Positions 3,752 through 27,286 of a DNA stretch of 29,402 bases are shown in pieces; positions within the stretch are counted from its first letter, which is position 1; each line of letters begins with the position of its first letter. A model generated the notes under the pieces. It was given only the letters and a program-made list of their open reading frames with translations, was not told the origin of the DNA and searched no databases. The position numbers were made by a program, and so were the translations under genes. Origin of the DNA: a virus; IMG/VR virus record IMGVR_UViG_3300032086_002387, positions 1 through 29,402 of that record. One strand, given 5' to 3'.

Positions 3752-4309
3752 ATGGCAGTTTTAAGCGTAAATGATTTTAAACAGCAGCTTGCCGGTGGCG
3801 GCGCTAGACCTAATCTATTCAAGGTTACTTTTAGAGCACCTCCTGGTATAGCTGGCGTTGAAGCTATAAGGGATGAGAAAACATCCTTTATGTGTAGAGC
3901 AGCACAGCTTCCGTCTTCCATTATGGGAAACATCATAGTCCCATTTCGTGGTCGTCAAGTTCAAATAGCTGGAGACAGAGTTTTTGAACCGTGGGTAGCA
4001 ACCGTGTTTAACGATACGGACTTTGCTATTCGTACGGCTATGGAAACATGGATGAACGGAATCAATAACCACGAAGATAACTCGGGTGTTACGACTCCCG
4101 ATCAATATCAGGTAGATCTTGATGTAGAACAGCTCGATAAAAACGGAGACACACTATATACTTACAAATTTGTAGGAGCGTTTCCAACCAACATCTCACC
4201 CATTGATCTATCTTATGATAATAATGACATTATTGAAGAATTCAGTATTGAGTTCCAGATTCAGTACTGGCATTCGTTTAACCAAGCGAAAGCACAAGTA
4301 ACTTCATAA
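3752..4309 (+). CDS. 19: Tail tube protein gp19
   Basis: A 185-aa tail tube subunit, forming the inner channel inside the gp18 sheath. Conserved features include the N-terminal MAVLSVNDFKQQLAGGGARP, the FKVTFRAPPG strand, the CRAAQLPSSIMGNIIVPFRG loop and the C-terminal EEFSIEFQIQYW segment. Length is close to T4 gp19 (163 aa). An AGGAG site lies 8 bases before the ATG, and the gene sits 13 bases after gp18, so both are probably read from the same late promoter. A smaller protein with the same fold pattern is encoded at 10616. Confidence 0.96.
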   Translation: MAVLSVNDFKQQLAGGGARPNLFKVTFRAPPGIAGVEAIRDEKTSFMCRAAQLPSSIMGNIIVPFRGRQVQIAGDRVFEPWVATVFNDTDFAIRTAMETWMNGINNHEDNSGVTTPDQYQVDLDVEQLDKNGDTLYTYKFVGAFPTNISPIDLSYDNNDIIEEFSIEFQIQYWHSFNQAKAQVTS

Positions 4310-10615: not shown

Positions 10616-11098
10616 ATGGCCGTTCGTACAGATAATGTTAATTACTTACAACCGAGTAATTTTAAGATAACAATTGAAAGACAGAAGTATGGCAACTTGC
10701 AATTTTTTGCGCAGTCTGTCATACATCCCGGTATAGCCGTATCTTCTGCTCAAGTGCCATTCAGTAGAATTCAAACGGTGTCTATTCCTGGTGATACTTT
10801 AAACTTTGACGAGTTACAGATAGATTTGATAATTGATGAAGACATGAACTCATATACTGAGATTTTTAACTGGATAAAATCTCTTACTGATAGTAGATCA
10901 AATCCTACAGAAAATTTTATAGAGCAAGACATACAGGTTAGTATACTATCTAGTTCTAACAACGTCATAAGAACAATAAGATATTTAAATGCCGTGCCGA
11001 CAAGTATAGGGTCTATAACCTTTACGGCTAGCTTATCGGATACTGATGTTATAACTATGCCGGTATCTTTTAGAATAGATGAGTTTGAAGTAGTTTGA
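10616..11098 (+). CDS. Tail-tube-like (gp19-fold) structural protein
   Basis: A 160-aa protein with the same motif order as gp19: SNFKITIERQKYGN aligns with gp19's NLFKVTFRAPPG, FFAQSVIHPGIAVSSAQVPF with its CRAAQLPSSIMG...VPF segment, PGDTLNFDELQIDLIIDEDM with GDRVFEPWVATVFNDTDF, and the IFNWIKSL helix with ETWMNGI. The family of tail-tube-fold proteins in T4 also includes gp48 and gp54 (tube initiation) and gp3-like end proteins. I cannot tell which role applies: tube variant, initiator or terminator. It occupies the place where T4 has the vertex protein gp24. A late promoter of its own supports a virion role. Confidence 0.65.
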   Translation: MAVRTDNVNYLQPSNFKITIERQKYGNLQFFAQSVIHPGIAVSSAQVPFSRIQTVSIPGDTLNFDELQIDLIIDEDMNSYTEIFNWIKSLTDSRSNPTENFIEQDIQVSILSSSNNVIRTIRYLNAVPTSIGSITFTASLSDTDVITMPVSFRIDEFEVV

Positions 11099-11793: not shown

Positions 11794-13300
11794 AGTTGTC
11801 TTACAGAAGATGAATCATAGTAATATGATTGTAGGATGTGACTGGGGAATAGCACAAGAACTTAGTGACTATTTCTCATTCTTTGTCCCTGGGTATAAGT
11901 ATATGCCCCTATACCGTAATAAAGTATGGGACGGTAAAGTAAGACTATTTAATGTCAACAACCATGAGCTACCATGCGGATTACTTCCTTACGTAAAAGA
12001 TTTTTGTGAAAAAAGACAATATACAGTTGAGTATGAGGATAGTAACTATGGTCCTCCTGAATCAATTAATGACATCGATCCAAACAAGATAATGTCTTTC
12101 ATTAAAAGTTTGGACTTATGTAGCAGTGGTCAACCGATAGAAATTAGAGATTACCAGTTTAACGCTATATGTGAAGGTATTCGTAGAAAAAGAGCTATCA
12201 TGCTTTCTCCAACTGGTTCCGGTAAATCACTTATAATATATGTATTAATGAGATGGTTTCTTGAAAACTACGATCAAAAAGCTCTAATCATTGTTCCTAC
12301 GACTTCTTTAGTTGAGCAGATGTACGGTGACTTCGATGACTACTCTTCCAATGATGAATCTTGGTCTGCTAATGAAGAGTGTCACGTAATATATTCCGGT
12401 AAACCAAAAACTAATGTAACGGAAAAAGTATTCATTAGCACTTGGCAGTCTATATACAAGCTTCCTATAACTTGGTTCGAACAGTTTGGATCAGTATTCG
12501 GAGACGAGTGTCATGGGTTTAAATCTAAGTCGTTAACTAACATTATGAATAAGTCTAGAGATGCTGAGTATAGGTTTGGTACTACGGGTACTTTGGATGG
12601 AACACAGACACACCAACTTGTGCTGGAAGGGTTGTTTGGTAAAGTTATGAAAGTAACCACCACCAAGAACCTTCAAGATAAGAACACCTTAGCCGATCTC
12701 GATATCTTTATGCTTGAATTAAATTATGATGATGAGACTAAGAAAAATAATGTTGGTTTAACGTATATTGATGAAATAGATTTTATAGTAAGAAATGAAA
12801 AAAGAAATAAGTTTATACGTAACTTAGCTTTAGACCAGACTGGTAATACATTGGTTTTATTTCAGTTTGTCGAAAAACATGGAAAACCACTTTTTGACCT
12901 TATAAATAATAAGGTGGAGGTAAACAGAAAGGTTTTCTTCGTATCTGGAGCTACTGAAACCTCTGACAGAGAAGCTATTCGTAAAATAACTGAAGGACAA
13001 AAAAATGCTATTATTGTTGCAAGTCTTGGTACCTTTAGTACTGGTATTAATATTCGGAATCTGCACAATATCATCTTTGCTAGCCCGTCAAAGTCTCAAA
13101 TTAAAGTTTTACAGAGTATCGGAAGAGGGTTACGTAAGTCCGATAACGGAAGAAGCACTAAGCTCTACGACATAGTAGATAATATGCAGCATAAGTCTAA
13201 GAAAAACTACGCTCTCTTACACTCCGAAGAAAGATTAAAGATATATAAAAAAGAAAAATTTAATTTTAAGCTATATAAGGTAGAAATTAATGGGAATTGA
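11786..13300 (+). CDS. uvsW: UvsW RNA-DNA/DNA helicase
   Basis: A 504-aa superfamily 2 helicase that in T4 unwinds R-loops and branched DNA and switches replication from origin-dependent to recombination-dependent. The N-terminal domain (GYKYMPLYRNKVWDGKVRLF) matches the T4 UvsW start region. Motif I is SPTGSGKS (141-148), motif II GDECH (239-243), motif III TTGTL (266-270), and motif VI SIGRGLRKS near 435. Length equals that of T4 UvsW (about 500 aa). The start is GTG at 11786, chosen because MDKVVLQKMNHSN aligns with the T4 start. The last 11 bases overlap the next gene. Confidence 0.95.
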   Translation: MDKVVLQKMNHSNMIVGCDWGIAQELSDYFSFFVPGYKYMPLYRNKVWDGKVRLFNVNNHELPCGLLPYVKDFCEKRQYTVEYEDSNYGPPESINDIDPNKIMSFIKSLDLCSSGQPIEIRDYQFNAICEGIRRKRAIMLSPTGSGKSLIIYVLMRWFLENYDQKALIIVPTTSLVEQMYGDFDDYSSNDESWSANEECHVIYSGKPKTNVTEKVFISTWQSIYKLPITWFEQFGSVFGDECHGFKSKSLTNIMNKSRDAEYRFGTTGTLDGTQTHQLVLEGLFGKVMKVTTTKNLQDKNTLADLDIFMLELNYDDETKKNNVGLTYIDEIDFIVRNEKRNKFIRNLALDQTGNTLVLFQFVEKHGKPLFDLINNKVEVNRKVFFVSGATETSDREAIRKITEGQKNAIIVASLGTFSTGINIRNLHNIIFASPSKSQIKVLQSIGRGLRKSDNGRSTKLYDIVDNMQHKSKKNYALLHSEERLKIYKKEKFNFKLYKVEINGN

Positions 13301-13688
13301 ATCTGACAATATAAAGCAACTTTTATTATCAGATGGTTCTGAAATTATCTGTAAGATAGAAGAAGAACTCGAAGACGATCTAGTAATTTCAAGTGCTTTT
13401 AAGATTGTGAGGATAGATACTCCTATTACTGGAAACAGCTACTATACTTTTAAGCCTTTCATGACTTATGTGGAAGATAGCAATCACTTTATATCTTTGA
13501 ATCTGTATCATATCGTATCTGCTACCGTTCCTTATAGTGAGCTACATAATCAATACGTAAAAATTATGGCGAATGTTAAAGAGATAATGTTGAGGCAAGA
13601 AGAAGAATTTAATGAAGAAGACGTTTTAGAAGAGAGTATAGAAGATTACAGTAACGTGATCAGCATAGACAGAAGCAAGCTGCACTAG
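13290..13688 (+). CDS. Small acidic protein, possible Sm-like fold
   Basis: A 132-aa protein not recognised from T4. Residues 8-80 alternate strands and turns (QLLLSDGSEIICKIEEELED, DLVISSAFKIVRID, YYTFKPFMTYVED, HFISLNLYHIVSATVP) in a way reminiscent of LSm/Hfq-type small barrels; this is a pattern impression only. The C-terminal 45 residues are acidic and probably disordered. The start overlaps the end of uvsW by 11 bases. It is the last gene before the divergent promoter region, and the minus-strand promoter there would produce RNA antisense to it. Confidence 0.55.
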   Translation: MGIESDNIKQLLLSDGSEIICKIEEELEDDLVISSAFKIVRIDTPITGNSYYTFKPFMTYVEDSNHFISLNLYHIVSATVPYSELHNQYVKIMANVKEIMLRQEEEFNEEDVLEESIEDYSNVISIDRSKLH

Positions 13689-13719
13689 TACTACTGCCCA
13701 CCATAAAGACCACTTTATT

Positions 13720-13747
13720 ATTATATACTATTTGTCAAAAAAGTAAA
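13720..13747 (-). promoter_or_regulatory. Minus-strand sigma70-type promoter
   Basis: Read on the minus strand, TTTACT (13747-13742) is followed by 16 bases and then TATAAT (13725-13720). This is nearly the same design as the plus-strand early promoters. It points into the 3' end of the 13290 gene and uvsW. No minus-strand gene follows, so the product would be antisense RNA. Confidence 0.5.
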
Positions 13748-13780
13748 CCCCAAAAATGCCTTTTTTTGAAAAAAAAGTGT

Positions 13781-13809
13781 TTTACTTTACTTTATTTTTA
13801 GTGTATAAT
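13781..13809 (+). promoter_or_regulatory. Early promoter for gp55 and the recombination operon
   Basis: TTTACT (13781-13786), 17 bases, TATAAT (13804-13809). Upstream A- and T-tracts (13761-13776) could act as UP-like or curved DNA. Transcription would start near 13816, which supports the gp55 start at 13839 rather than at 13821. Confidence 0.8.
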
Positions 13810-13838
13810 ATATCTAAATTATGTTTAAGGAATTTGTA

Positions 13839-14435
13839 ATGAGTAAAAAGAAATCAAAGAACGTACATTACATTAACAATCAAGAATTTTCTCAGGCTGT
13901 AGTAAACTATGTCACTGAGGTAAAGAAATCTAAAGAAAAAGATGAATCTCTTCCCGTAGTTCCAGACTACATAGCGATATCATTTTTAAGAATAGCCGAA
14001 AACTTATCACATAAATCTAACTTTATCAGATACACCTATCGTGAAGAAATGGTGATGGATGCTGTAGAAAACTGTCTTAAAGCAATAGAAAACTACGACA
14101 TAAATGCTGAGACGAGAACAGGAAAACCAAACGCTTTCGCGTACTTCACACAAATTATTTGGTATGCTTTCCTGAGAAGAATTCAAAAAGAAAAGAGACA
14201 ACAGGATATAAAAGAAAAATATCTTTCTCAATCCGGAGTTGAAGCTTTTATAGCCAATGAATTGGCTGATGACGCTGCTACTCAGGTAGCAACTCACTTC
14301 ATCGATACTCTTAAAGATAGGATAGATAAAGTAAAAGCTTATGATACTGAGATAAAAGAATTCGCGAAAACCACCAAAAAGAAAAAGAAAAGAGCGGTTC
14401 ACGTAGACTCAGACCTTACAGAATTTTTGGAATAA
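13839..14435 (+). CDS. 55: Late transcription sigma factor gp55
   Basis: A 198-aa divergent sigma factor that directs host RNA polymerase to TATAAATA late promoters and is activated by the gp45 clamp. T4-like segments are VHYINNQEFSQAVVNY, FLRIAENLSHKSNFIRYTY, EEMVMDAVENCLKAIENYD and the region 2-like PNAFAYFTQIIWYAFLRRIQ. The C-terminal DSDLTEFLE is the kind of hydrophobic-acidic tail that contacts the clamp. The ATG at 13839 has AAGGA 7 bases upstream; the in-frame ATG at 13821 lacks a site and nearly coincides with the transcript start. The five exact TATAAATA sites in gaps of this window are its probable targets. gp47 follows after 3 bases. Confidence 0.95.
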   Translation: MSKKKSKNVHYINNQEFSQAVVNYVTEVKKSKEKDESLPVVPDYIAISFLRIAENLSHKSNFIRYTYREEMVMDAVENCLKAIENYDINAETRTGKPNAFAYFTQIIWYAFLRRIQKEKRQQDIKEKYLSQSGVEAFIANELADDAATQVATHFIDTLKDRIDKVKAYDTEIKEFAKTTKKKKKRAVHVDSDLTEFLE

Positions 14436-14438
14436 TAA

Positions 14439-15500
14439 ATGAAGATAGCAGTACTGAATGATACTCATTGCGGTATTAGAAACAGCAGTGAAGTTTTTTT
14501 GAATAATGCAGCTGATTTTTGGGGAAAAGTATTTTTTCCTCATTGCATTGAGCATGATATTAAACACATAGTTCATCTCGGTGATGTCTATGATCATCGT
14601 AAGTTCGTTAACTTTAGAGCTCTTAATCATAATCGTAAGCACTTTTTAGATAAGCTTCGTGAAAACAAGATGACTATGGACGTCATCCCAGGTAATCATG
14701 ATACTTATTATAAGAATACGAATGATTTAAATTCTCTTAAAGAACTTCTTGGACACTATATGAATGAGATCCATATTATTATGGAACCAACAGTTATGGA
14801 GTATGGATCTTTAAAGATGGCTCTGCTCCCTTGGATTAATCAAGAAAACTATGAAAAAAGCATTAACTTTGTACGAAACTGTAAAGCTGATTGGTTAGGT
14901 GGTCATTTAGAACTATCTGGGTTTGATCTTATGAGAGGTGTGGTTAACCATCATGGTATGGACCATAAGATATTTGATAGGTTCGAAAAAGTTTTATCTG
15001 GTCACTTCCACGTAAAATCACAAAAAGATAATGTCATGTATCTTGGTTCTCAAATGGAGTTCTTCTGGTCTGATGCTCATGATCCCAAGTATTTTCATGT
15101 CATTGACACCGAGACTCGTGAGATAGAAGCCATTCGTAACCCACATACTCTTTATGAAAGAATTCACTACGATGATTCTAAAAAAGATTACACCGATATG
15201 AATGTGGATTTTGTAGACAATAAATTTGTAAAAATAGTTGTAATAAATAAGCAAGACCTATTTACATTTGACCGATTTGTTGATAGAATACAAAATAGGA
15301 AGATACATGAACTCAAGATTGCTGAAAACTTTAATGAGTTTATTGGTGAAAACGTTGATGATGAAGGTGTTTCTGTCGAAGAGACTGAAACTCTTCTGGA
15401 TAGTTATATTGATGCTGTTGAAACGGATCTGGATAAAGACAAGATCAAAGTAAGCATGCGCAATTTGTTAAGTGAAGCACAGGCTCTCGAAATAGTATGA
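14439..15500 (+). CDS. 47: Recombination nuclease subunit gp47 (Mre11/SbcD-like)
   Basis: A 353-aa metallophosphoesterase, the nuclease half of the gp46/47 complex that resects ends for recombination-dependent replication and degrades host DNA. Metal-binding motifs are in order: NDTHCGIR (D8, H10), HLGDVYDHR (D49), PGNHDTYY (N86, H87), GGHLELSG and SGHFHVKS. Length matches T4 gp47 (339 aa). The acidic C-terminal segment after about residue 280 is probably the gp46-binding part. The stop overlaps the gp46 ATG (ATGA), so the two subunits should be made together. Confidence 0.97.
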   Translation: MKIAVLNDTHCGIRNSSEVFLNNAADFWGKVFFPHCIEHDIKHIVHLGDVYDHRKFVNFRALNHNRKHFLDKLRENKMTMDVIPGNHDTYYKNTNDLNSLKELLGHYMNEIHIIMEPTVMEYGSLKMALLPWINQENYEKSINFVRNCKADWLGGHLELSGFDLMRGVVNHHGMDHKIFDRFEKVLSGHFHVKSQKDNVMYLGSQMEFFWSDAHDPKYFHVIDTETREIEAIRNPHTLYERIHYDDSKKDYTDMNVDFVDNKFVKIVVINKQDLFTFDRFVDRIQNRKIHELKIAENFNEFIGENVDDEGVSVEETETLLDSYIDAVETDLDKDKIKVSMRNLLSEAQALEIV

Positions 15501-17215
15501 TCGTATTTAAAACTGTTCGTTGGAAAAATTTTCTATCCACCGGTAATAAGTGGACTGAAATTAATCTAAATAAAGTGAAATCAACTCTTATCGTTGGTCA
15601 AAACGGTGCTGGTAAATCAACTTTACTGGATGCTTTATCGTTTGCTCTGTTTGGTAAACCTCACCGTAACATCAATAAACCTCAGCTTGTAAACACTATT
15701 AATAATAAAGACTGTATAGTAGAAGCAGTATTTACTATCGGTTCATCTGAATTCAAAGTAGTACGTGGTATAAAACCGGGTATCTTTGAGATCTGGAAGA
15801 ATGGGACAATGATTAATCAATCATCTCATTCCAAAGAGTACCAGAAGGTCCTCGAGCAAAACATCATTAAGCTTAATCATAAGAGCTTCCATCAGATTGT
15901 TGTGCTTGGTTCCTCCTCCTTTATTCCTTTCATGCAGCTGCCAGCACAGCATAGACGGGATGTTATCGAGGACCTTCTGGATATTAATATATTTTCAAAG
16001 ATGAACCAGCTTATTAAGGAAAAGAACGCCAGTCTTAAAGATAAATTAAAAGATAATGATTACCAGCTCGATATCGTAAAAAACAAGATAGAAGCTCAAC
16101 GCAAATATATTCGAGACATCACTCAAATGAATGAGGATGAGATTAATGATAAAAAAGATAAGATCGCCGAAGTACAAAAGAACATCGAAGACTTACAATA
16201 TTCAAATGGCGAGCTCTCACATTTTATTCAAGACAGTGCCGAAAACACATCAGAAGCACTTAAAGAAGCCAATGATGAGAAACAGCGCCTTCTTCACGAT
16301 AAGGCTACAGCCACATCAGCCATTAAATCAATTGTTAAAGATTCAAAGTTTTATGAAGAGAATGATAATTGCCCGACGTGTTCACAAGTTATCGACCCAG
16401 AACTTAAATCCAAAAAGATCGAGGAGTGTAAACATGATGCTCATGAGATCAAAAAGCAGATGGATGCTCTCCAAGAAAAAAGTAAAGAGCTAACCGAAAG
16501 ACTAGACTATTGGAATGCTCAAGCAGAAAAGCTTAGAGAGTTTCAATCTAAGATAAACGGTAACAATCAAACCATTACATCTTTACAAAAACAAATATTC
16601 GGTTTGAATAAAGACATTGAAAGACTTACCGCTAAGGAGGGTGATATCGGCGAAGCTAATAAAGACCTTCAAGAAATGAATGATGATCGTAACTCTCGTA
16701 TGGAAGAAAAGCTCAAGCTTAACGAAGAGTATTCTTATAACATGGTCATGTCTGAGATGCTGAAAGATACTGGTATCAAGACCAAAGTAATCAAGCAGTA
16801 TATTCCAATCATAAATAAGCTAGTCAACCAGTACCTACAAGTTCTTGATTTTTTCGTACACTTTAACTTAGATGAAAGTTTTCAAGAAACTATACGTTCA
16901 AGACATCGGGATGCTTTCTCCTATGATTCTTTTTCTGAAGGAGAAAAACAAAGAATTGATTTGGCTCTATTATTTACATGGCGCCAGATTGCTAAAATGA
17001 AAAATTCAGTAGCCACGAATTTGCTCATTCTTGATGAAACGTTCGACTCATCTCTCGATCATGATGGTGTAGACAATCTTATGAAAATTCTATACACACT
17101 TGGTGAGGATACGAATGTATTTGTCATATCTCATAAGGGAGAAATACTTGACGGGAAATTCGCAGAAAAAATAGAATTTATGAAAGAGAAAAACTTTAGC
17201 AAAATGGTGGCATAA
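15497..17215 (+). CDS. 46: Recombination ATPase subunit gp46 (Rad50/SbcC-like)
   Basis: A 572-aa SMC-type ATPase that partners gp47. The N-terminal Walker A is VGQNGAGKST (33-42). Two long coiled-coil arms flank a zinc hook CPTC (C292, C295). The signature motif FSEGEKQRIDLALLF begins at 479, and Walker B LLILDETFDSSLD lies near 509-521, followed by the VISHK histidine switch. Length matches T4 gp46 (560 aa). It overlaps gp47 upstream by four bases and the next small gene by one base (TAATG). Confidence 0.98.
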   Translation: MIVFKTVRWKNFLSTGNKWTEINLNKVKSTLIVGQNGAGKSTLLDALSFALFGKPHRNINKPQLVNTINNKDCIVEAVFTIGSSEFKVVRGIKPGIFEIWKNGTMINQSSHSKEYQKVLEQNIIKLNHKSFHQIVVLGSSSFIPFMQLPAQHRRDVIEDLLDINIFSKMNQLIKEKNASLKDKLKDNDYQLDIVKNKIEAQRKYIRDITQMNEDEINDKKDKIAEVQKNIEDLQYSNGELSHFIQDSAENTSEALKEANDEKQRLLHDKATATSAIKSIVKDSKFYEENDNCPTCSQVIDPELKSKKIEECKHDAHEIKKQMDALQEKSKELTERLDYWNAQAEKLREFQSKINGNNQTITSLQKQIFGLNKDIERLTAKEGDIGEANKDLQEMNDDRNSRMEEKLKLNEEYSYNMVMSEMLKDTGIKTKVIKQYIPIINKLVNQYLQVLDFFVHFNLDESFQETIRSRHRDAFSYDSFSEGEKQRIDLALLFTWRQIAKMKNSVATNLLILDETFDSSLDHDGVDNLMKILYTLGEDTNVFVISHKGEILDGKFAEKIEFMKEKNFSKMVA

Positions 17216-17355
17216 TGAGTCAAAATTACTGTACTACAAAAGGTTTAGGATGGGCTGTTCTTATATCAGTCTTTATCATATTAGGTATTCCAATTATTAT
17301 TAATTTGTTAGCTTGGCCTGACGTTGGTGTGTGGACTTTGTTCAATGACGCCTAG
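17215..17355 (+). CDS. 46-aa single-pass membrane peptide
   Basis: The ATG overlaps the gp46 stop (TAATG) and encodes 46 residues starting MSQNYCTTKG. Residues 11-33 (GLGWAVLISVFIILGIPIII) form one clear transmembrane helix, followed by a short tail ending TLFNDA. The function is unknown. It overlaps the following membrane-peptide gene by 11 bases in a different frame. The reality of the gene rests on its start-stop coupling and hydrophobic pattern; no ribosome site is needed if it is coupled to gp46. Confidence 0.55.
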   Translation: MSQNYCTTKGLGWAVLISVFIILGIPIIINLLAWPDVGVWTLFNDA

Positions 17356-17548
17356 AGAAGAAGCACAGAAAGAAGCGGAAAAAACTTTTGAGTTGTTTAT
17401 GCTTTGGACAAAGAGAGCCACAATTTATAGTATTTTGTTTTTGATGGTAGTTGTTTTTGGATGTAACAGTGGTGTAGAAACAGGACCAGATAAAACTGGC
17501 TCACAATATAATGGTGAGGTTTATGCTCCCATGAATGTAGGAGATTAA
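17345..17548 (+). CDS. 67-aa membrane peptide, resembles aa3-oxidase subunit IV
   Basis: Starting at the ATG at 17345 the product is MTPREEAQKEAEKTFELF..., with a transmembrane helix (about 25-45, ATIYSILFLMVVVFGC) and a short polar tail. The pattern EAEKTFELFMLWTKRATIYS resembles bacterial aa3-type cytochrome c oxidase subunit IV peptides of alphaproteobacteria, which have an acidic N-terminus, K-T-(F/Y)-x-x-F, then one helix. VVFGC could instead be read as a lipobox, though the preceding charged stretch is too long for a typical signal. It ends 2 bases before the PEP carboxykinase start. The oxidase link is a tentative family impression. Confidence 0.5.
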   Translation: MTPREEAQKEAEKTFELFMLWTKRATIYSILFLMVVVFGCNSGVETGPDKTGSQYNGEVYAPMNVGD

Positions 17549-17550
17549 TA

Positions 17551-18753
17551 ATGCCAAATATTGAGATTACAACTAACCCCACAGGTAGAAGTCCAGAAAA
17601 CAAATATCATTTTGGTACATTGACTAGAGAGCTAGATAAATCAAGACCGAAATATTATAAAATTGGTGATGAAGCTGATTACTACGAATTTTATAAAGAT
17701 TTAAAAAATGATGATTGTTATAAGCATGATATAGAATTTGAAACTTGTGGGTATAGGTTTCGTGTTGTGACAAATGATGACAGACACGCACAGTTTGTTC
17801 GTAATATGTTTACGCCCGTTATAAAAGGTAAGATTCCAGATTGGAATATTATTCACAACACGAATTTAGAAATGGATCCAAAGATTTATGTGCATCTTGA
17901 TAAGCAAGAAATGCTTATTGCTGGAACAACCTTTCTTGGTGAAATTAAAAAAGGTGTGTTTGGTATAATAAGTTTTCTTTTACCTAAGAACGGTGTACTA
18001 CCAATGCATTGTAGCGCATTTACATATAAAGATACTACGAACCTAATGTTTGGATTAAGTGGAACTGGAAAAACAACGCTTAGCAGCGATCCTGACTTCA
18101 ATCTTATTGGAGATGATGAAATTTCTTGGAATCATTATGGAATTGAAATGGTTGAAACCGGTTGTTATGCTAAAAGTGAAGGTTTAACTCCAGAAACACA
18201 CAAGACCATTTTTGATGCTGTTGAGTTGGCCAGAAAAAGAGAAACACTTGTGATAGAGAATCCCGGTGTACCAAACGCTAGATTGAGTTATCCAATAGAC
18301 TGCGTTGAAAATTCTCATAGACTACAAAGAGAATTTGAACACCCAAATAACATCTTCTTTTTAACTATGGATGCAAAGGGATTATTTCCACCAGTAAGTA
18401 AAATTAAAGGAGACACGGTTAGAAGATTTTTTGAAACTGGATACACTAGCCAGATGCCGGGAACAGAAGCTGGTAGTAATGAAATTAAAGCCATATTCAG
18501 TCCATGTTATGGTTCACCCTTTATGCCAAGAAAGATAGAAGAATATAGTGATCTTCTTATGCAAAAAATTCATGCTAATGAGTGTAATGTTTTTCTCATA
18601 AATACTGGAATGGATAAAGCCGGTAAGCGCTATCCTCTTCCATTTACTCGCGATTGTGTTAAAAATGCTATTTTGAGAGGAGCCACTGATAATAGTCAAG
18701 AGTGTTTAAAAATATTGGAAAATCTATTAAATGATAGTTTACAAGCAGCTTAA
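17551..18753 (+). CDS. pckA: ATP-dependent phosphoenolpyruvate carboxykinase homologue
   Basis: The 400-aa protein matches PckA, which converts oxaloacetate and ATP to PEP, ADP and CO2. Against recalled E. coli numbering it keeps TGRSPENKY (R13 = R65), GEIKKG (K133/K134 = K212/K213), MHCSA (H153 = H232), the P-loop GLSGTGKTT (K174 = K254), LIGDDE (D188/D189 = D268/D269), ARLSYP (R244 = R333) and GKRYPLPFTR (R360, T366 = R449, T455). Position 128 is Phe where E. coli has Tyr207. It is about 140 residues shorter than PckA (540 aa): the N-terminal ~50 and C-terminal ~100 are largely missing, with trimmed N-domain loops. AGGAG lies 7 bases before the ATG. Codons look more AT-rich than in gp46 or gp45, suggesting acquisition. 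It probably acts in the cytoplasm; a kinase of altered specificity is the alternative. Confidence 0.88.
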   Translation: MPNIEITTNPTGRSPENKYHFGTLTRELDKSRPKYYKIGDEADYYEFYKDLKNDDCYKHDIEFETCGYRFRVVTNDDRHAQFVRNMFTPVIKGKIPDWNIIHNTNLEMDPKIYVHLDKQEMLIAGTTFLGEIKKGVFGIISFLLPKNGVLPMHCSAFTYKDTTNLMFGLSGTGKTTLSSDPDFNLIGDDEISWNHYGIEMVETGCYAKSEGLTPETHKTIFDAVELARKRETLVIENPGVPNARLSYPIDCVENSHRLQREFEHPNNIFFLTMDAKGLFPPVSKIKGDTVRRFFETGYTSQMPGTEAGSNEIKAIFSPCYGSPFMPRKIEEYSDLLMQKIHANECNVFLINTGMDKAGKRYPLPFTRDCVKNAILRGATDNSQECLKILENLLNDSLQAA

Positions 18754-18766
18754 AATAGTTTATAAT
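18738..18766 (+). promoter_or_regulatory. Early promoter for gp45 operon
   Basis: TTTACA (18738-18743), 17 bases, TATAAT (18761-18766). The -35 box lies inside the last codons of the PEP carboxykinase gene. Transcription should start about 25 bases before the gp45 ATG, whose ribosome site is AAAGGAG. Confidence 0.88.
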
Positions 18767-18797
18767 AGTTTTATGATTTACAAAGGAGAAATATATA

Positions 18798-19472
18798 ATG
18801 GAACTCAGTGATTCAACACTGCAGGTATTGAAGAACTATGCCTCTATCAATTCTAATCTCGTGGTTGAAGAAGGTAATACTCTTCAAACTATTTCTGAGG
18901 CTAAAAATGTTCTTTCAAAATCTACTATCAGTGAAGTGTTTCCTTCTAGGTTTGGCATTTATGATTTAAACGAATTCTTAAATGTGCTTGGTCTAGTTGA
19001 TAGACCTCGTTTAAAATTTGAAGACAACTCCGTGCTCATTGGAGATTCTACTGGTAGGTCAAAAGTACGTTACTACTTCTCAGACACAGAGATGCTCACA
19101 GCACCGTCTAAAGAAGTGAAGATGCCAGACACAGACGTAAGGTTCTCTCTTGATAACGACACCTTAAATAAAATCAAACGTGCGGCTTCAGCTCTTGGTC
19201 ATAATGAACTTCAAGTATCACCAAGTGGAGGTGTGGTATCTCTTACCGTTACTTCTACTGAAAACTCAACCGCAAATTCTTTTTCTATTGACGTGGAGGG
19301 CTCTGCAAACATTGATAAATACAACTTTATATTTAACATCTCAAACCTTAAAATGACTCCAGGTAATTATGAGGTTGAGATATCATCTAAACTAATTTCG
19401 AAGTTTACCAATACTGAAACTGACTTGAAGTATTGGATCGCTCTTGAAAAGACATCAACATACGGAGAATAA
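18798..19472 (+). CDS. 45: Sliding clamp gp45
   Basis: A 224-aa processivity clamp (T4: 228 aa) forming a trimeric ring that tethers gp43 and also activates gp55-dependent late transcription. T4-like stretches include the N-terminal LSDSTLQVLKNYASINSNLV, FGIYDLNEFLNVLGL, and the C-terminal YWIALEKTSTYGE. No catalytic residues are expected. It has its own early promoter and a good ribosome site, giving strong expression apart from upstream genes. A 66-aa gene follows after 3 bases, then the clamp loader. Confidence 0.95.
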   Translation: MELSDSTLQVLKNYASINSNLVVEEGNTLQTISEAKNVLSKSTISEVFPSRFGIYDLNEFLNVLGLVDRPRLKFEDNSVLIGDSTGRSKVRYYFSDTEMLTAPSKEVKMPDTDVRFSLDNDTLNKIKRAASALGHNELQVSPSGGVVSLTVTSTENSTANSFSIDVEGSANIDKYNFIFNISNLKMTPGNYEVEISSKLISKFTNTETDLKYWIALEKTSTYGE

Positions 19473-19475
19473 TTA

Positions 19476-19676
19476 ATGTTTGATAATGAAGATCAAAAAC
19501 GTGCAATGGAACTAATGAATCAAATCTCACGTAGCACTATTGCTATCATTGATACAATTACTCAGCGTGGTGGTTTCCGCGGTGAAGAACTTTCAACCAT
19601 CGGTAACCTACGTGATCAGTGTACACAGGGTGTACAAATTGTAGAAGCTTGGAAACAGGAACAAGCTGAAGAGTAA
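19476..19676 (+). CDS. Small helical protein between gp45 and gp44
   Basis: A 66-aa protein (MFDNEDQKRAMELMNQISRS...) with two predicted helices separated by RGGFRGEEL. GGAG lies 8 bases before the ATG, overlapping the gp45 end. No T4 homologue is recognised at this position; T4 has rpbA on the other side of gene 45. Function unknown. Position within the clamp/clamp-loader operon suggests a replication or transcription accessory, by inference only. Glu/Gln-rich C-terminus; no membrane segment. Confidence 0.6.
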   Translation: MFDNEDQKRAMELMNQISRSTIAIIDTITQRGGFRGEELSTIGNLRDQCTQGVQIVEAWKQEQAEE

Positions 19677-19693
19677 AGGGATAGTTTTATATT

Positions 19694-20632
19694 ATGAATG
19701 ATGATTTCTTGTGGGTTGAAAAATATCGGCCACAGACTATTGAACAAACTATCTTACCAGAAAAACTAAAAACTATATTTAAGAATATTGTCAAGTCTGG
19801 CGAAGTACCGAATATGTTATTTAGCGGTACTGCTGGCCTTGGTAAAACTACTGTTGCAAAAGCAATGTGTAATGAGTTAGATCTCGATTATATTCTTGTT
19901 AACGGTTCAGAAGAAGGCAATATTGATACTCTTCGCACGAAGATAAAACAATTTGCCTCTTCTGTTTCTTTATCTGGTGGATACAAAGTAGTAATACTTG
20001 ATGAAGCGGATTATCTTAATCCTCAATCAACACAACCCGCTCTTCGTGGATTCATTGAAGAATTTGCAAATAACTGCAGGTTTATTCTTACTTGTAATTT
20101 TAAAAATAGAATTATCGAACCTCTACATTCTAGATGTTCAGTATACGAATTCAATACAAGTAAGAAGGATATGGCACCCTTAGCCGGACAAATGATGTCC
20201 AGACTAAAAGACATTCTTGAAAAAGAAAATGTTGAATATGAAGATAAAGTACTCGCCAATCTAATTATGAAGTACGGTCCGGATTGGAGAAGAGTATTAA
20301 ATGAGTGTCAAAGGTATTCTATAGGTGGAAGAATTGATTCCGGTATTCTGATTAATATCGGGGACGAATCTTTTCAGAATCTTTTTTCGTTTTTAAAAAC
20401 CAAAGACTTTAAGAAGATGAGGTCTTGGGTCGTAAACAACATCGACACTGATGCATCGTCTATATTTCGCGGTCTTTACGATAGAATGTATGATTCCGTA
20501 AAGCCTCATTTCATTCCTCAACTGGTTTTAATACTAGCTGACTACCAGTATAAGAATGCTTTTGTTGCAGATCATGAGTTGAACGTAGTGGCGTGTATGA
20601 CTGAAATTATGGCTAACGTGGAGTTTAATTAA
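19694..20632 (+). CDS. 44: Clamp loader large subunit gp44
   Basis: A 312-aa AAA+ ATPase (T4: 319 aa) that with gp62 opens and loads the gp45 clamp. Walker A is GTAGLGKTT (45-53), Walker B VILDEAD (100-106), sensor 1 TCN (133-135) and the arginine finger SRC (146-148). The N-terminal WVEKYRPQTIEQTILP is the typical RFC-type start. The C-terminal helical collar is complete. The ribosome site (AAAGGGA) is somewhat distant. The stop overlaps the ATG of the next gene (TAATG). Confidence 0.97.
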   Translation: MNDDFLWVEKYRPQTIEQTILPEKLKTIFKNIVKSGEVPNMLFSGTAGLGKTTVAKAMCNELDLDYILVNGSEEGNIDTLRTKIKQFASSVSLSGGYKVVILDEADYLNPQSTQPALRGFIEEFANNCRFILTCNFKNRIIEPLHSRCSVYEFNTSKKDMAPLAGQMMSRLKDILEKENVEYEDKVLANLIMKYGPDWRRVLNECQRYSIGGRIDSGILINIGDESFQNLFSFLKTKDFKKMRSWVVNNIDTDASSIFRGLYDRMYDSVKPHFIPQLVLILADYQYKNAFVADHELNVVACMTEIMANVEFN

Positions 20633-21240
20633 TGGTAAAGTATGAAGGATTAGACAACGCAGTAATCTTTGATTTTGAAACGTTATCTCAAGATCAAATG
20701 AACGGTGTAGTGGTATCCATGGCCATGTTAACTTTTTCTGAGACAAGGTTTATTGGAGACTTAGCATATACTTTTGATGAGTTAGTTAAAAACACTCACT
20801 TAATTAAATTTAATGTTGAGGAACAAGTAAAAAAGTTTGGAAGAAAGATTGATAAATCAACTCTCGAATGGTGGAACAAACAGGGTGAATTAGCTAAAAA
20901 GCAGCTAGCTCCTAGTGAAGAAGATGTTTCAATATCTGAACTCTATCAGTTTTTTATCATAAATAAAAGAGTAAATGTTAAGAAAGTATACACTCGCGGC
21001 AATACTTTCGATCCAATTATTATGGAGCATATTCTCAAACAATTTGATAGACCTATGCCATACGAATGGTGGGAAGTTCGTGATACAAGATCTCTTATAG
21101 AAGGTCTATCTTGGGGTACAGATCTAAATAATAGCTTCATGCCTCCTAACTGTGAATCGTTTATACACCATGATCCAAGACACGACATCGCTCTTGATGT
21201 TATGAGAATGCAAACACTAGTACAGGCTATCAATGAATGA
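20632..21240 (+). CDS. dexA: DexA-like DEDD 3'-5' exonuclease
   Basis: A 202-aa exonuclease similar to T4 DexA (227 aa). The DEDD motifs are visible: Exo I VIFDFET (D14, E16), Exo II YTRGNTFDPII, and Exo III HHDPRHDIALD near the C-terminus (histidine form). The internal KSTLEWWNKQGELAKKQLAPS strongly resembles the T4 STIEWWKNQSPEARKNIAPS stretch. T4 dexA lies elsewhere in its genome; here it is inserted between the two clamp-loader genes and overlaps both (1 base with gp44, 4 bases with gp62). A role in DNA turnover or proofreading-like trimming is likely. Nothing is missing. Confidence 0.92.
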   Translation: MVKYEGLDNAVIFDFETLSQDQMNGVVVSMAMLTFSETRFIGDLAYTFDELVKNTHLIKFNVEEQVKKFGRKIDKSTLEWWNKQGELAKKQLAPSEEDVSISELYQFFIINKRVNVKKVYTRGNTFDPIIMEHILKQFDRPMPYEWWEVRDTRSLIEGLSWGTDLNNSFMPPNCESFIHHDPRHDIALDVMRMQTLVQAINE

Positions 21241-21617
21241 ATCATTTTGACTTCTTAAATTCTATTAATTCTACTAAAGAAAATATAATGAAAGATGATT
21301 TGGATGAAAAAGCTTATAGTAGCTTTATGGTGAACAGAGGCTTGTCATACTTCAATGATACAGTAATTTATGCAAATGAAATGAACAAGTACTCTCATCT
21401 TGATTCTAAACTTCAATATGATTTTTTACGACACATTGTTAGAAAAAGAAAAAGATTTTCTAAATGGAATAAAGCAGATAAGATGCCAGATGTTGAAGTT
21501 GTTTCTAAATACTATGGATACTCAAAACAAAAATCTATTGAAGCTTTAAAAGTCTTAAATCAAGATCAACTACAAGTTTTACGTAAAAAAGTCAGCAAGG
21601 GTGGAAGAAATCCTTAA
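21237..21617 (+). CDS. 62: Clamp loader small subunit gp62
   Basis: A 126-aa protein completing the gp44/62 loader. The T4 gp62 pattern is present: YSSFMVNRGLSYFNDTVIYA (T4 [20 protein letters not shown]), FLRHIVRKRKRFSKWNK (T4 VPRGKRYGKWAK), and VVSKYYGYSKQKSIEALKVL. It is shorter than T4 (187 aa), mostly because the N-terminal region is reduced. The ATG overlaps the dexA stop, so synthesis is coupled. The gene ends before a 71-base gap with a late promoter for regA. Confidence 0.9.
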   Translation: MNHFDFLNSINSTKENIMKDDLDEKAYSSFMVNRGLSYFNDTVIYANEMNKYSHLDSKLQYDFLRHIVRKRKRFSKWNKADKMPDVEVVSKYYGYSKQKSIEALKVLNQDQLQVLRKKVSKGGRNP

Positions 21618-21628
21618 AACTCAAATTT

Positions 21629-21636
21629 TATAAATA
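21629..21636 (+). promoter_or_regulatory. Late promoter (TATAAATA) before regA
   Basis: An exact TATAAATA lies in the 71-base gap between gp62 and regA, 52 bases before the regA ATG. The leader also contains TCATGA twice (21643-21648 and 21656-21661). No -35/-10 pair of the early type is visible in this gap. Confidence 0.75.
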
Positions 21637-22215: not shown

Positions 22216-22686
22216 ATGACAGGCTTACAAACACTTTTTCCACGTTCATCTTTTGTTGGTTTTGACCATTTGTTTAATGAACTAGAGTTCACAGCAAAGC
22301 ACGCACAAGATCATTATCCACCCCATAATATTATTAAGACCGATGAGAACGATTACCTCATTGAGCTTGCTATTGCTGGGTTTACGAGAGATGAAATTAC
22401 AGTAGAGGTCAAAGACCGAACACTGACAGTTACAGGAGAACACGTGTCCAAAGGTCGTGAGTTTATTCATCGTGGTATTTCGACGAAGAAGTTTAAACGC
22501 ACGTTCCGGCTGTCCGAACATGTAAATGTACTCGGAGCAGATATTCAGGATGGAATACTTGCAATAGAATTGAAGTATATCATTCCCGAAGAAATGCGTC
22601 CTCGTAAAATCGAAATCGGTAAAGCGAGGAATTTAAATGACACAGGCAGTATTAGTAGCCCACAGCTACTTAACGAAGACGGTTGA
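22216..22686 (+). CDS. hsp20: Small heat shock protein Hsp20
   Basis: A 156-aa holdase chaperone. The alpha-crystallin domain spans about 38-130: HNIIKTDENDYLIELAIAGF, EITVEVKDRTLTVTGEH, FIHRGISTKKFKRTFRLSEH, ADIQDGILAIELKYIIPEE, followed by the C-terminal IEI anchoring motif in PRKIEIG. Hsp20 genes are known in marine T4-like phages, where they may assist virion protein folding. AAAGGAG precedes the ATG. The final 50 bases overlap the start of the DUF1127 gene. A short inverted repeat (CGGA/TCCG near 22167) lies in the leader, but I see no convincing RNA thermometer. Confidence 0.95.
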   Translation: MTGLQTLFPRSSFVGFDHLFNELEFTAKHAQDHYPPHNIIKTDENDYLIELAIAGFTRDEITVEVKDRTLTVTGEHVSKGREFIHRGISTKKFKRTFRLSEHVNVLGADIQDGILAIELKYIIPEEMRPRKIEIGKARNLNDTGSISSPQLLNEDG

Positions 22687-26856: not shown

Positions 26857-26875
26857 ATACAAAATGGAGAAAAAT

Positions 26876-27286
26876 ATGAGTGATTGGGCTTTTGATATCT
26901 ACCAAATGCATAATAAGTTTGGTGTAAAAGAATGGTTTGAAAATAACAAACATGATAAAGAACTAATGAAAACATACCTACGTTTTCGTTTGAATATGTG
27001 TAATGAAGAAATGGGTGAATGCTTTGATGCACTCGACAACGAAGATCCTGAAGAAATCGTAGATGGTCTTATTGATATCTGTGTATTTGCTATCGGTACT
27101 CTTGATGTCTTTGGTGTAGATGCCAATGAAGCATGGAATCGTATCTACGAAGCAAACATGGCAAAGTCACCTGGTGTGAAAGAAGGTAGACCTAATCCAT
27201 TTGGTTTACCAGATCTAATCAAACCCGACGGATGGGAATCACCTAACCACGAAGGTAATCATGGAAGTCTCAGCGACCTTTTTTAA
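26876..27286 (+). CDS. MazG-like nucleotide pyrophosphohydrolase
   Basis: A 136-aa all-alpha NTP pyrophosphatase-type protein. The metal-binding helices are seen as MCNEEMGECFDAL (EExxE) and EEIVDGLIDICVFAIGTLD (ExxxD), followed by the typical AWNRIYEANMAKSPGVKEGR signature. Such enzymes hydrolyse (d)NTPs or related nucleotides to monophosphates; in phages they may adjust nucleotide pools or alarmones. The ATG at 26876 has GGAG 6 bases upstream, while the ATG at 26864 overlaps that site. The C-terminal HEGNHGSLSDLF is Gly/Asn-rich. It overlaps the primase-like gene by 26 bases. Confidence 0.88.
   Translation: MSDWAFDIYQMHNKFGVKEWFENNKHDKELMKTYLRFRLNMCNEEMGECFDALDNEDPEEIVDGLIDICVFAIGTLDVFGVDANEAWNRIYEANMAKSPGVKEGRPNPFGLPDLIKPDGWESPNHEGNHGSLSDLF

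Follow-up and report, generated by a model that had tools for sequence, protein, structure and literature searches.

The open reading frame at positions 17551-18753 of the window (the whole 29.4-kb stretch analysed, an IMG/VR virus record with ordered T4-like head, tail and replication genes) was confirmed, by sequence family and predicted fold, as an ATP-type PEP carboxykinase (PEPCK). Viral PEPCK was known before, as were PEPCK itself and metabolic genes in phages; new, as far as the literature searched shows, are a compact phage PEPCK family with its residue signature, its KDO/triose context, and chromosomal replacement. From sequence and model, we consider it quite probable that the gene (phage pck) encodes a functional compact ATP-dependent PEPCK, expressed by the phage together with its replication genes and converting oxaloacetate to PEP for synthesis that the phage needs; we infer the activity, the decarboxylating direction, the timing and the use of PEP. 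Such a role would fit the intact catalytic residues, the purifying selection, the wide distribution in T4-like phages, the PEP- and triose-using neighbours, and the position of the short form as the sole PEPCK found in a bacterial lineage.

A compact PEPCK within a T4-like replication module

Pfam and PHROGs matches gave the gene order terL, gp18, gp19, gp20, gp21, gp22, gp23, uvsW, gp55, gp47 and gp46, with gp23, gp20, gp18 and terL at the left end of the window. After gp46 came two small membrane ORFs, PEPCK, gp45, gp44, an exonuclease, gp62, regA, Hsp20 and gp43. The original prediction had placed the gene in a T4-like replication setting, and gp47, gp46, gp45, gp44, gp62, regA and gp43 were all identified by these searches. 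The features around pck are as follows.

13821..14435, + strand: gp55 late sigma factor (phrog_234, E = 9e-50)
14439..15500, + strand: gp47-like subunit, SbcD-like (phrog_100, E = 2e-89)
15497..17215, + strand: gp46-like recombination endonuclease subunit, SbcC-like, upstream of PEPCK (phrog_77, E = 2e-173)
17215..17355, + strand: small membrane ORF, 46 aa, overlapping the end of gp46 (from sequence)
17345..17548, + strand: small membrane ORF, 67 aa, stopping 2 bp 5' of the pck start codon (from sequence; weak Pfam match to COX4_pro_2, E = 4.8e-5, 23.9 bits)
17551..18753, + strand: compact ATP-type PEP carboxykinase (phage pck), 400 aa, ATG start (PF01293, E = 1e-89)
18798..19472, + strand: gp45 sliding clamp, downstream of PEPCK (phrog_223, E = 3e-72; Pfam gp45-slide_C)
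19694..20632, + strand: gp44 clamp loader (phrog_168, E = 3e-121)
21237 (start): gp62
21689 (start): regA
23584 (start): gp43

The nearest relatives of the window gp23 were those of phage C48C1 (64%), Methylophilales phage Melnitz (60%) and Pelagibacter phage HTVC008M (59%), all Kyanoviridae. In phage C48C1, gp46 and gp45 directly adjoin; in HTVC008M, Melnitz and Mosig the gap between them is filled by other genes. The T4-type late promoter TATAAATA did not occur within window positions 12908-21629. Because pck is packed in the gp47-gp46-gp45-gp44 run and this consensus is missing nearby, it would probably be expressed together with the replication genes.

Several other window genes were observed. 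The Rv2179c-like exonuclease (20632-21240) is an insert between gp44 and gp62, and two proteins (3752-4309 and 10616-11098) matched the tail tube family phrog_45. The Hsp20 small heat-shock protein (22216-22686) and a MazG-like pyrophosphohydrolase (26864-27286) are common in the marine T4-like relatives of this analysis too. COX4_pro_2, weakly matched by the 67-aa ORF, is the bacterial aa3 cytochrome oxidase subunit IV domain; an ORF resembling this one was found near pck in contig L005 and just upstream of it in L009.

The Pfam PEPCK_ATP match scored 302 bits against a cut-off of 26.5 bits, and aligned residues 7-381 with positions 34-442 of the 465-position profile. The closest solved structure by sequence was the Thermus PEPCK 1j3b (E = 2.7e-60). 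An AlphaFold2 model, built with 17 family sequences, had a pLDDT of 89.2 and a pTM of 0.88; VIA-align superposed it on 1j3b with Z 39.0 (378/400 residues, 2.2 Å, 33% identity) and on GTP-type PEPCKs with Z 27-28 only, well below the 1j3b score. The original prediction had named the enzyme from its ATP-PEPCK motifs and proposed a profile search and a superposition as checks; both agree with it, and all of the motifs are present, in order and aligned with the E. coli catalytic positions, which excludes chance.

The protein has 400 aa versus ~530 in typical members. Compared with E. coli Pck, to which it is ~30% identical, residues 1-52, residues 474-540 and several loops are missing, making ~52 N-terminal, ~66 C-terminal and ~140 total residues fewer. 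All relatives are open frames of 394-444 aa, so that the ORF encodes a whole member of a compact family and not a fragment, and the short-form PEPCKs form their own long-branched clade in the tree. The match to the NCBIfam pckA equivalog TIGR00224 reached 253 bits versus a cut-off of 590, as expected for a compact and divergent protein outside that curated equivalog; the PRK09344 match was likewise below its cut-off.

Catalytic residues were surveyed in 49 distinct short-form members (47 phage-type and 2 chromosomal). Those of the window protein are R13, K133, K134, H153, GLSGTGKTT at 168-176, D188, D189, K208, R244, R360 and T366, in which both the kinase motif GxxGxGKTT (168-176) and the second metal motif DD (188-189) are present; these motifs were invariant in the 49 members. 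By E. coli numbers, Arg65, Lys212, Lys213, His232, Ser250, the GTGKTT loop, Asp268, Asp269, Lys288, Arg333, Arg449 and Thr455 were invariant in 49/49. The Mn ligands Lys213, His232 and Asp269 (window K134, H153 and D189), the oxaloacetate/PEP arginines Arg65 and Arg333 (R13 and R244) and the ATP contacts Lys254, Thr255, Lys288 and Arg449 (K174, T175, K208 and R360) are all invariant.

At two other positions the short form differs. Glu297 was replaced by His in 49/49 short-form members and was Glu in 30/30 full-length enzymes. Tyr207, which we take to have a role in CO2/PEP binding, was Phe in 48/49 (window Phe128), with Tyr kept only in L022, a 245-kb contig; it was Tyr in 29/29 readable full-length enzymes compared. 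In PEPCKs, losing the Tyr207 hydroxyl is expected to weaken PEP binding; the literature searched held no account of how Y207F alters kinetics. Crystals of the E. coli Y207F mutant with oxaloacetate (structure 6at3) show the fold kept, so the site survives the change and Tyr207 is not absolutely defining. Together the two substitutions may give kinetics different from those of an ordinary PEPCK. Relative to the known ATP-dependent enzymes (EC 4.1.1.49; E. coli Pck, Thermus 1j3b), the phage form thus shares the near-full-length fold, the motif order and all checked Mn/ATP/oxaloacetate residues, but differs in its length, its low identity to E. coli Pck, Tyr207Phe and Glu297His.

Distribution and selection of phage pck

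Scanning with the window protein recovered 23 viral contigs, and scanning with the family alignment at least 99 IMG/VR contigs, as counted by two peptide patterns (80 of 99 kept). All copies uncut by contig ends have open frames. Purifying selection on phage pck is strong: pairwise dN/dS had a median of 0.065 (range 0.02-0.16, 82 pairs), and the short-form proteins diverge to ~53% identity while the checked catalytic residues stay fixed. The gene was inserted at gp46/gp45, directly after gp43 (4-bp overlap), near a gp41-like gene and in other non-core cargo regions, and overlaps adjoining phage genes by 1-4 bp. Intact and flanked by clear phage genes across many related phages, it has the genomic setting of an auxiliary metabolic gene.

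As a control, gp45 relatives were gathered irrespective of PEPCK, and 76 contigs also had gp46 in view. The two genes were <100 bp apart in 61/76, a single PEPCK gene lay between them in 9/76 (gap ~1.26 kb), and gaps of other kinds were seen in 6/76. PEPCK is therefore an optional insert, in keeping with the earlier view that this is not a standard T4-like gene. Among 50,697 phage records no T4-like isolate with phage-type pck was found, and PHROGs held no family matching it. Isolated phages were rejected as carriers, matches in the phage collection being only 33-37% identical.

Four contigs (L273-L276) have a different insert of ~1.1 kb at the gp46/gp45 junction, which, together with the many genes found there in the Pelagibacter phages HTVC008M and Mosig, marks the junction as an insertion hotspot. 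Other PEPCK records were of different kinds. The phage-collection records AGRM01000003, AFYI01000003 and MG543995 hold host-type PEPCK, and the half-megabase Salmonella records look like bacterial contigs. L194 (LR756504.1), a 636-kb uncultured phage, encodes an ordinary full-length PEPCK (524 aa), which groups with Bacteroidota and was acquired independently. Phage-type PEPCK also occurs in L108 (PBPT01000016.1) and L109, contigs assigned to Neomarinimicrobiota and Flavobacteriales bins; since each of the two genomes has an ordinary full-length PEPCK as well, these contigs appear to be phage DNA that was binned with them.

Phage-type pck at a chromosomal locus

A scan of bacterial genomes found phage-type pck (~66% identical to the window) in five alphaproteobacterial single-cell genomes (SAGs): AG-404-G18, AG-414-O15, AG-911-F16, AG-910-B21 and AH-287-M23. 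The gene lies at L152:6776-7969 in AG-414-O15, and the other chromosomal copies are on L153-L156. Where the contig was long enough, the upstream flank held etfB, etfA, 3-hydroxybutyryl-CoA dehydrogenase, rapZ and hprK, and the downstream flank DUF429 and acyl-CoA dehydrogenase; the AH-287-M23 contig ends at the gene on one side. A phage infecting the single cells was rejected as the source of these copies because the flanks are chromosomal. Neither a second ATP-type nor a GTP-type PEPCK was found in the five SAGs, all of which are probably incomplete.

In most regions fetched from relatives of the same order, a full-length pckA lies between hprK and acyl-CoA dehydrogenase, with a histidine kinase and a response regulator between hprK and pckA in the relative region scanned with Pfam. 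At the SAG locus the short pck begins 165 bp from hprK, and so occupies the ancestral pckA position beside hprK-rapZ. Four nearer relatives (G008-G011) carry full-length pckA at a different, urease-flanked locus. PEPCK was present in 292/293 genomes of the order, with the short form only in the SAG genome of that sample.

A tree joining the short clade with the order's native pckA, as vertical descent of the SAG gene would require, was rejected (AU p = 0.00026), which shows the gene to be foreign at its SAG position. Descent from any alphaproteobacterial pckA was weakly rejected (AU p = 0.04). In the free tree the SAG copies were nested in the phage clade, and phages were kept apart in 0/200 bootstrap trees. 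The AU test did not reject a tree with the phages alone as a clade and the SAG copies outside (p = 0.58), because the outgroup branch is very long, and the rooting leaves the direction unfixed. Phages were the only other carriers found, which makes phage-to-bacterium transfer the simplest account, and we judge it the likeliest, with fairly good confidence; the reverse transfer, from bacterium to phage, or a shared donor is less likely.

Whichever the direction, cells relying on the short-form protein suggest a working PEPCK, so that the bacterial copy is a natural hint that the phage-type enzyme works. Candidates for the replacement of a cell's central-metabolism gene by a viral one are rare, and the SAG pck is among them.

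Metabolic neighbours and the proposed role

Genes within 6 kb of PEPCK were counted over 45 distinct loci (95% clusters). Class-I FBP aldolase was found in 14/45, KDO8P synthase in 12/45 (as immediate neighbour in 9 of these), GAPDH in 10/45, a KdsB-like cytidylyltransferase in 7/45 and PRPP synthetase in 4/45. On three T4-like contigs kdsA, pck and kdsB stand in this order with overlapping ORFs (L010:796-3417, L015:4829-7462 and L088:5232-7853), a possible operon that would both make PEP and use it for CMP-KDO. The order is kdsA-kdsB-pck in L006 and pck-kdsA in L009; these differing orders suggest that the association probably formed more than once, though many of the loci are close kin, and many of the kdsA-adjacent ones fall in one subclade of the PEPCK tree. 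One T4-like contig type (L016:1563-12213, also L333 and L341) has PRPP synthetase, class-I aldolase, PEPCK and GAPDH within ~11 kb. On seven contigs of 82-178 kb, aldolase was present in 5/7, GAPDH in 3/7, PRPP synthetase in 2/7 and KdsA in 1/7. The 29 kb of the window contain PEPCK and none of these partner enzymes. Only 3/16 larger aldolase contigs carry PEPCK; aldolase is thus more widespread and the two are no obligate pair. Cargo genes may also cluster without a joint pathway.

When the viral loci were searched with the E. coli enzymes, no match was obtained for eno, pgk, gpmA, gpmM, tpiA, fbp, glpX, ppsA, aceA and aceB, nor by tblastn for pfkA, pykF and ppc, although distant or non-homologous forms could escape them. 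A complete phage gluconeogenesis was rejected, as no contig had the whole route by these queries, and with enolase, PGK, PGM, TPI and FBPase not found, host enzymes would be required. Aromatic synthesis was rejected as the main PEP sink: the E. coli AroG query was without a match, and the neighbours of the DAHP family score best as KDO8P synthases. Of the PEP uses first suggested, the sugar-phosphate and nucleotide branches would fit the KDO8P synthase, GAPDH, class-I aldolase and PRPP synthetase neighbours, and the aromatic branch found no support.

During infection the enzyme would convert oxaloacetate and ATP to PEP, CO2 and ADP while the phage DNA is replicated. In relatives with an adjoining kdsA, PEP would be a direct substrate of KDO8P synthase; it could otherwise be passed to hexose and pentose phosphates, PRPP and sugar nucleotides by host enolase, mutase and PGK and by phage or host GAPDH and aldolase. 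We favour, by a little, a wider picture as a whole, in which a compact PEPCK evolved in phages entered marine alphaproteobacteria, replaced the native pckA in place beside hprK-rapZ and now runs their gluconeogenesis, and in which the phages carry a partial gluconeogenic cargo (PEPCK, GAPDH, class-I aldolase and PRPP synthetase) and produce CMP-KDO through a kdsA-pck-kdsB operon.

The PEPCK reaction is reversible, and an active enzyme could run mainly in the carboxylating, anaplerotic direction, turning PEP, CO2 and ADP into oxaloacetate and ATP. Pyrimidines need aspartate, which this oxaloacetate could supply along with ATP, and no phage PEP carboxylase was found with the E. coli query. However, pck recurs beside the PEP consumer KDO8P synthase and beside GAPDH and class-I aldolase, with neither pyruvate kinase nor phosphofructokinase found, which points to PEP production, and the lost Tyr207 hydroxyl would disfavour carboxylation; we regard this direction as unlikely. 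It is less probable again that the PEPCK fold was kept while the function shifted, for instance to decarboxylating oxaloacetate, to phosphorylating some other substrate or to serving as a regulatory decoy. The family-wide Tyr207Phe and Glu297His, the 140 fewer residues and the scores below the NCBIfam equivalog cut-offs would agree with a shift, but every other checked catalytic residue is invariant under strong purifying selection, and the short form is the only PEPCK-like gene found in five bacterial genomes, where it stands at the pckA position.

Phages do pick up host genes, and the pck sites vary, as would be seen for a passenger without fitness effect or for host DNA misassembled into a viral contig. 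The occurrence in at least 99 viral contigs, the clean 1.26-kb insert at gp46/gp45 in nine, the 1-4 bp overlaps with phage genes, the open frames throughout and a dN/dS of ~0.07 make either hardly credible. The reading we retain is a working auxiliary metabolic gene whose decarboxylating PEPCK would supply PEP for the synthesis of KDO and pentose phosphates.

PEPCK is the entry step of gluconeogenesis, and heterotrophic ocean bacteria live largely on organic and amino acids. The conservation of a compact PEPCK across many marine T4-like phages suggests that, on infection of such bacteria, carbon of the TCA cycle is drawn into surface sugars and sugar phosphates. The cyanophage carbon genes talC, zwf, gnd and cp12 are a parallel in which T4-like phages steer host carbon to pentose phosphates; they serve the oxidative pentose phosphate pathway in cyanobacteria, whereas phage pck would enter at oxaloacetate. 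Another parallel is a T4-like environmental genome with aceBA and KdsA (PMC5332604), which also has a gluconeogenic feeder and a KDO synthase, but with the glyoxylate shunt instead of PEPCK; aceA and aceB were not found in the phage pck contigs with the E. coli queries.

The main text of the ocean surveys compared makes no mention of a phage PEPCK. Gene lists include pckA, by annotation, among trench sediment virome genes (PMC12448302) and ppsA in deep Mediterranean viromes (PMC10653327). These share the idea of viruses boosting PEP formation but, as lists, hold no analysis of family, structure, residues, synteny or host replacement. Giant viruses of the Mimiviridae encode an ATP-type PEPCK with a proposed gluconeogenic role (PMC9270025). 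Unlike phage pck, the giant-virus enzymes (Klosneuvirus and Catovirus models) belong to viruses of eukaryotes, and the Catovirus protein has 480 aa and is 28% identical.
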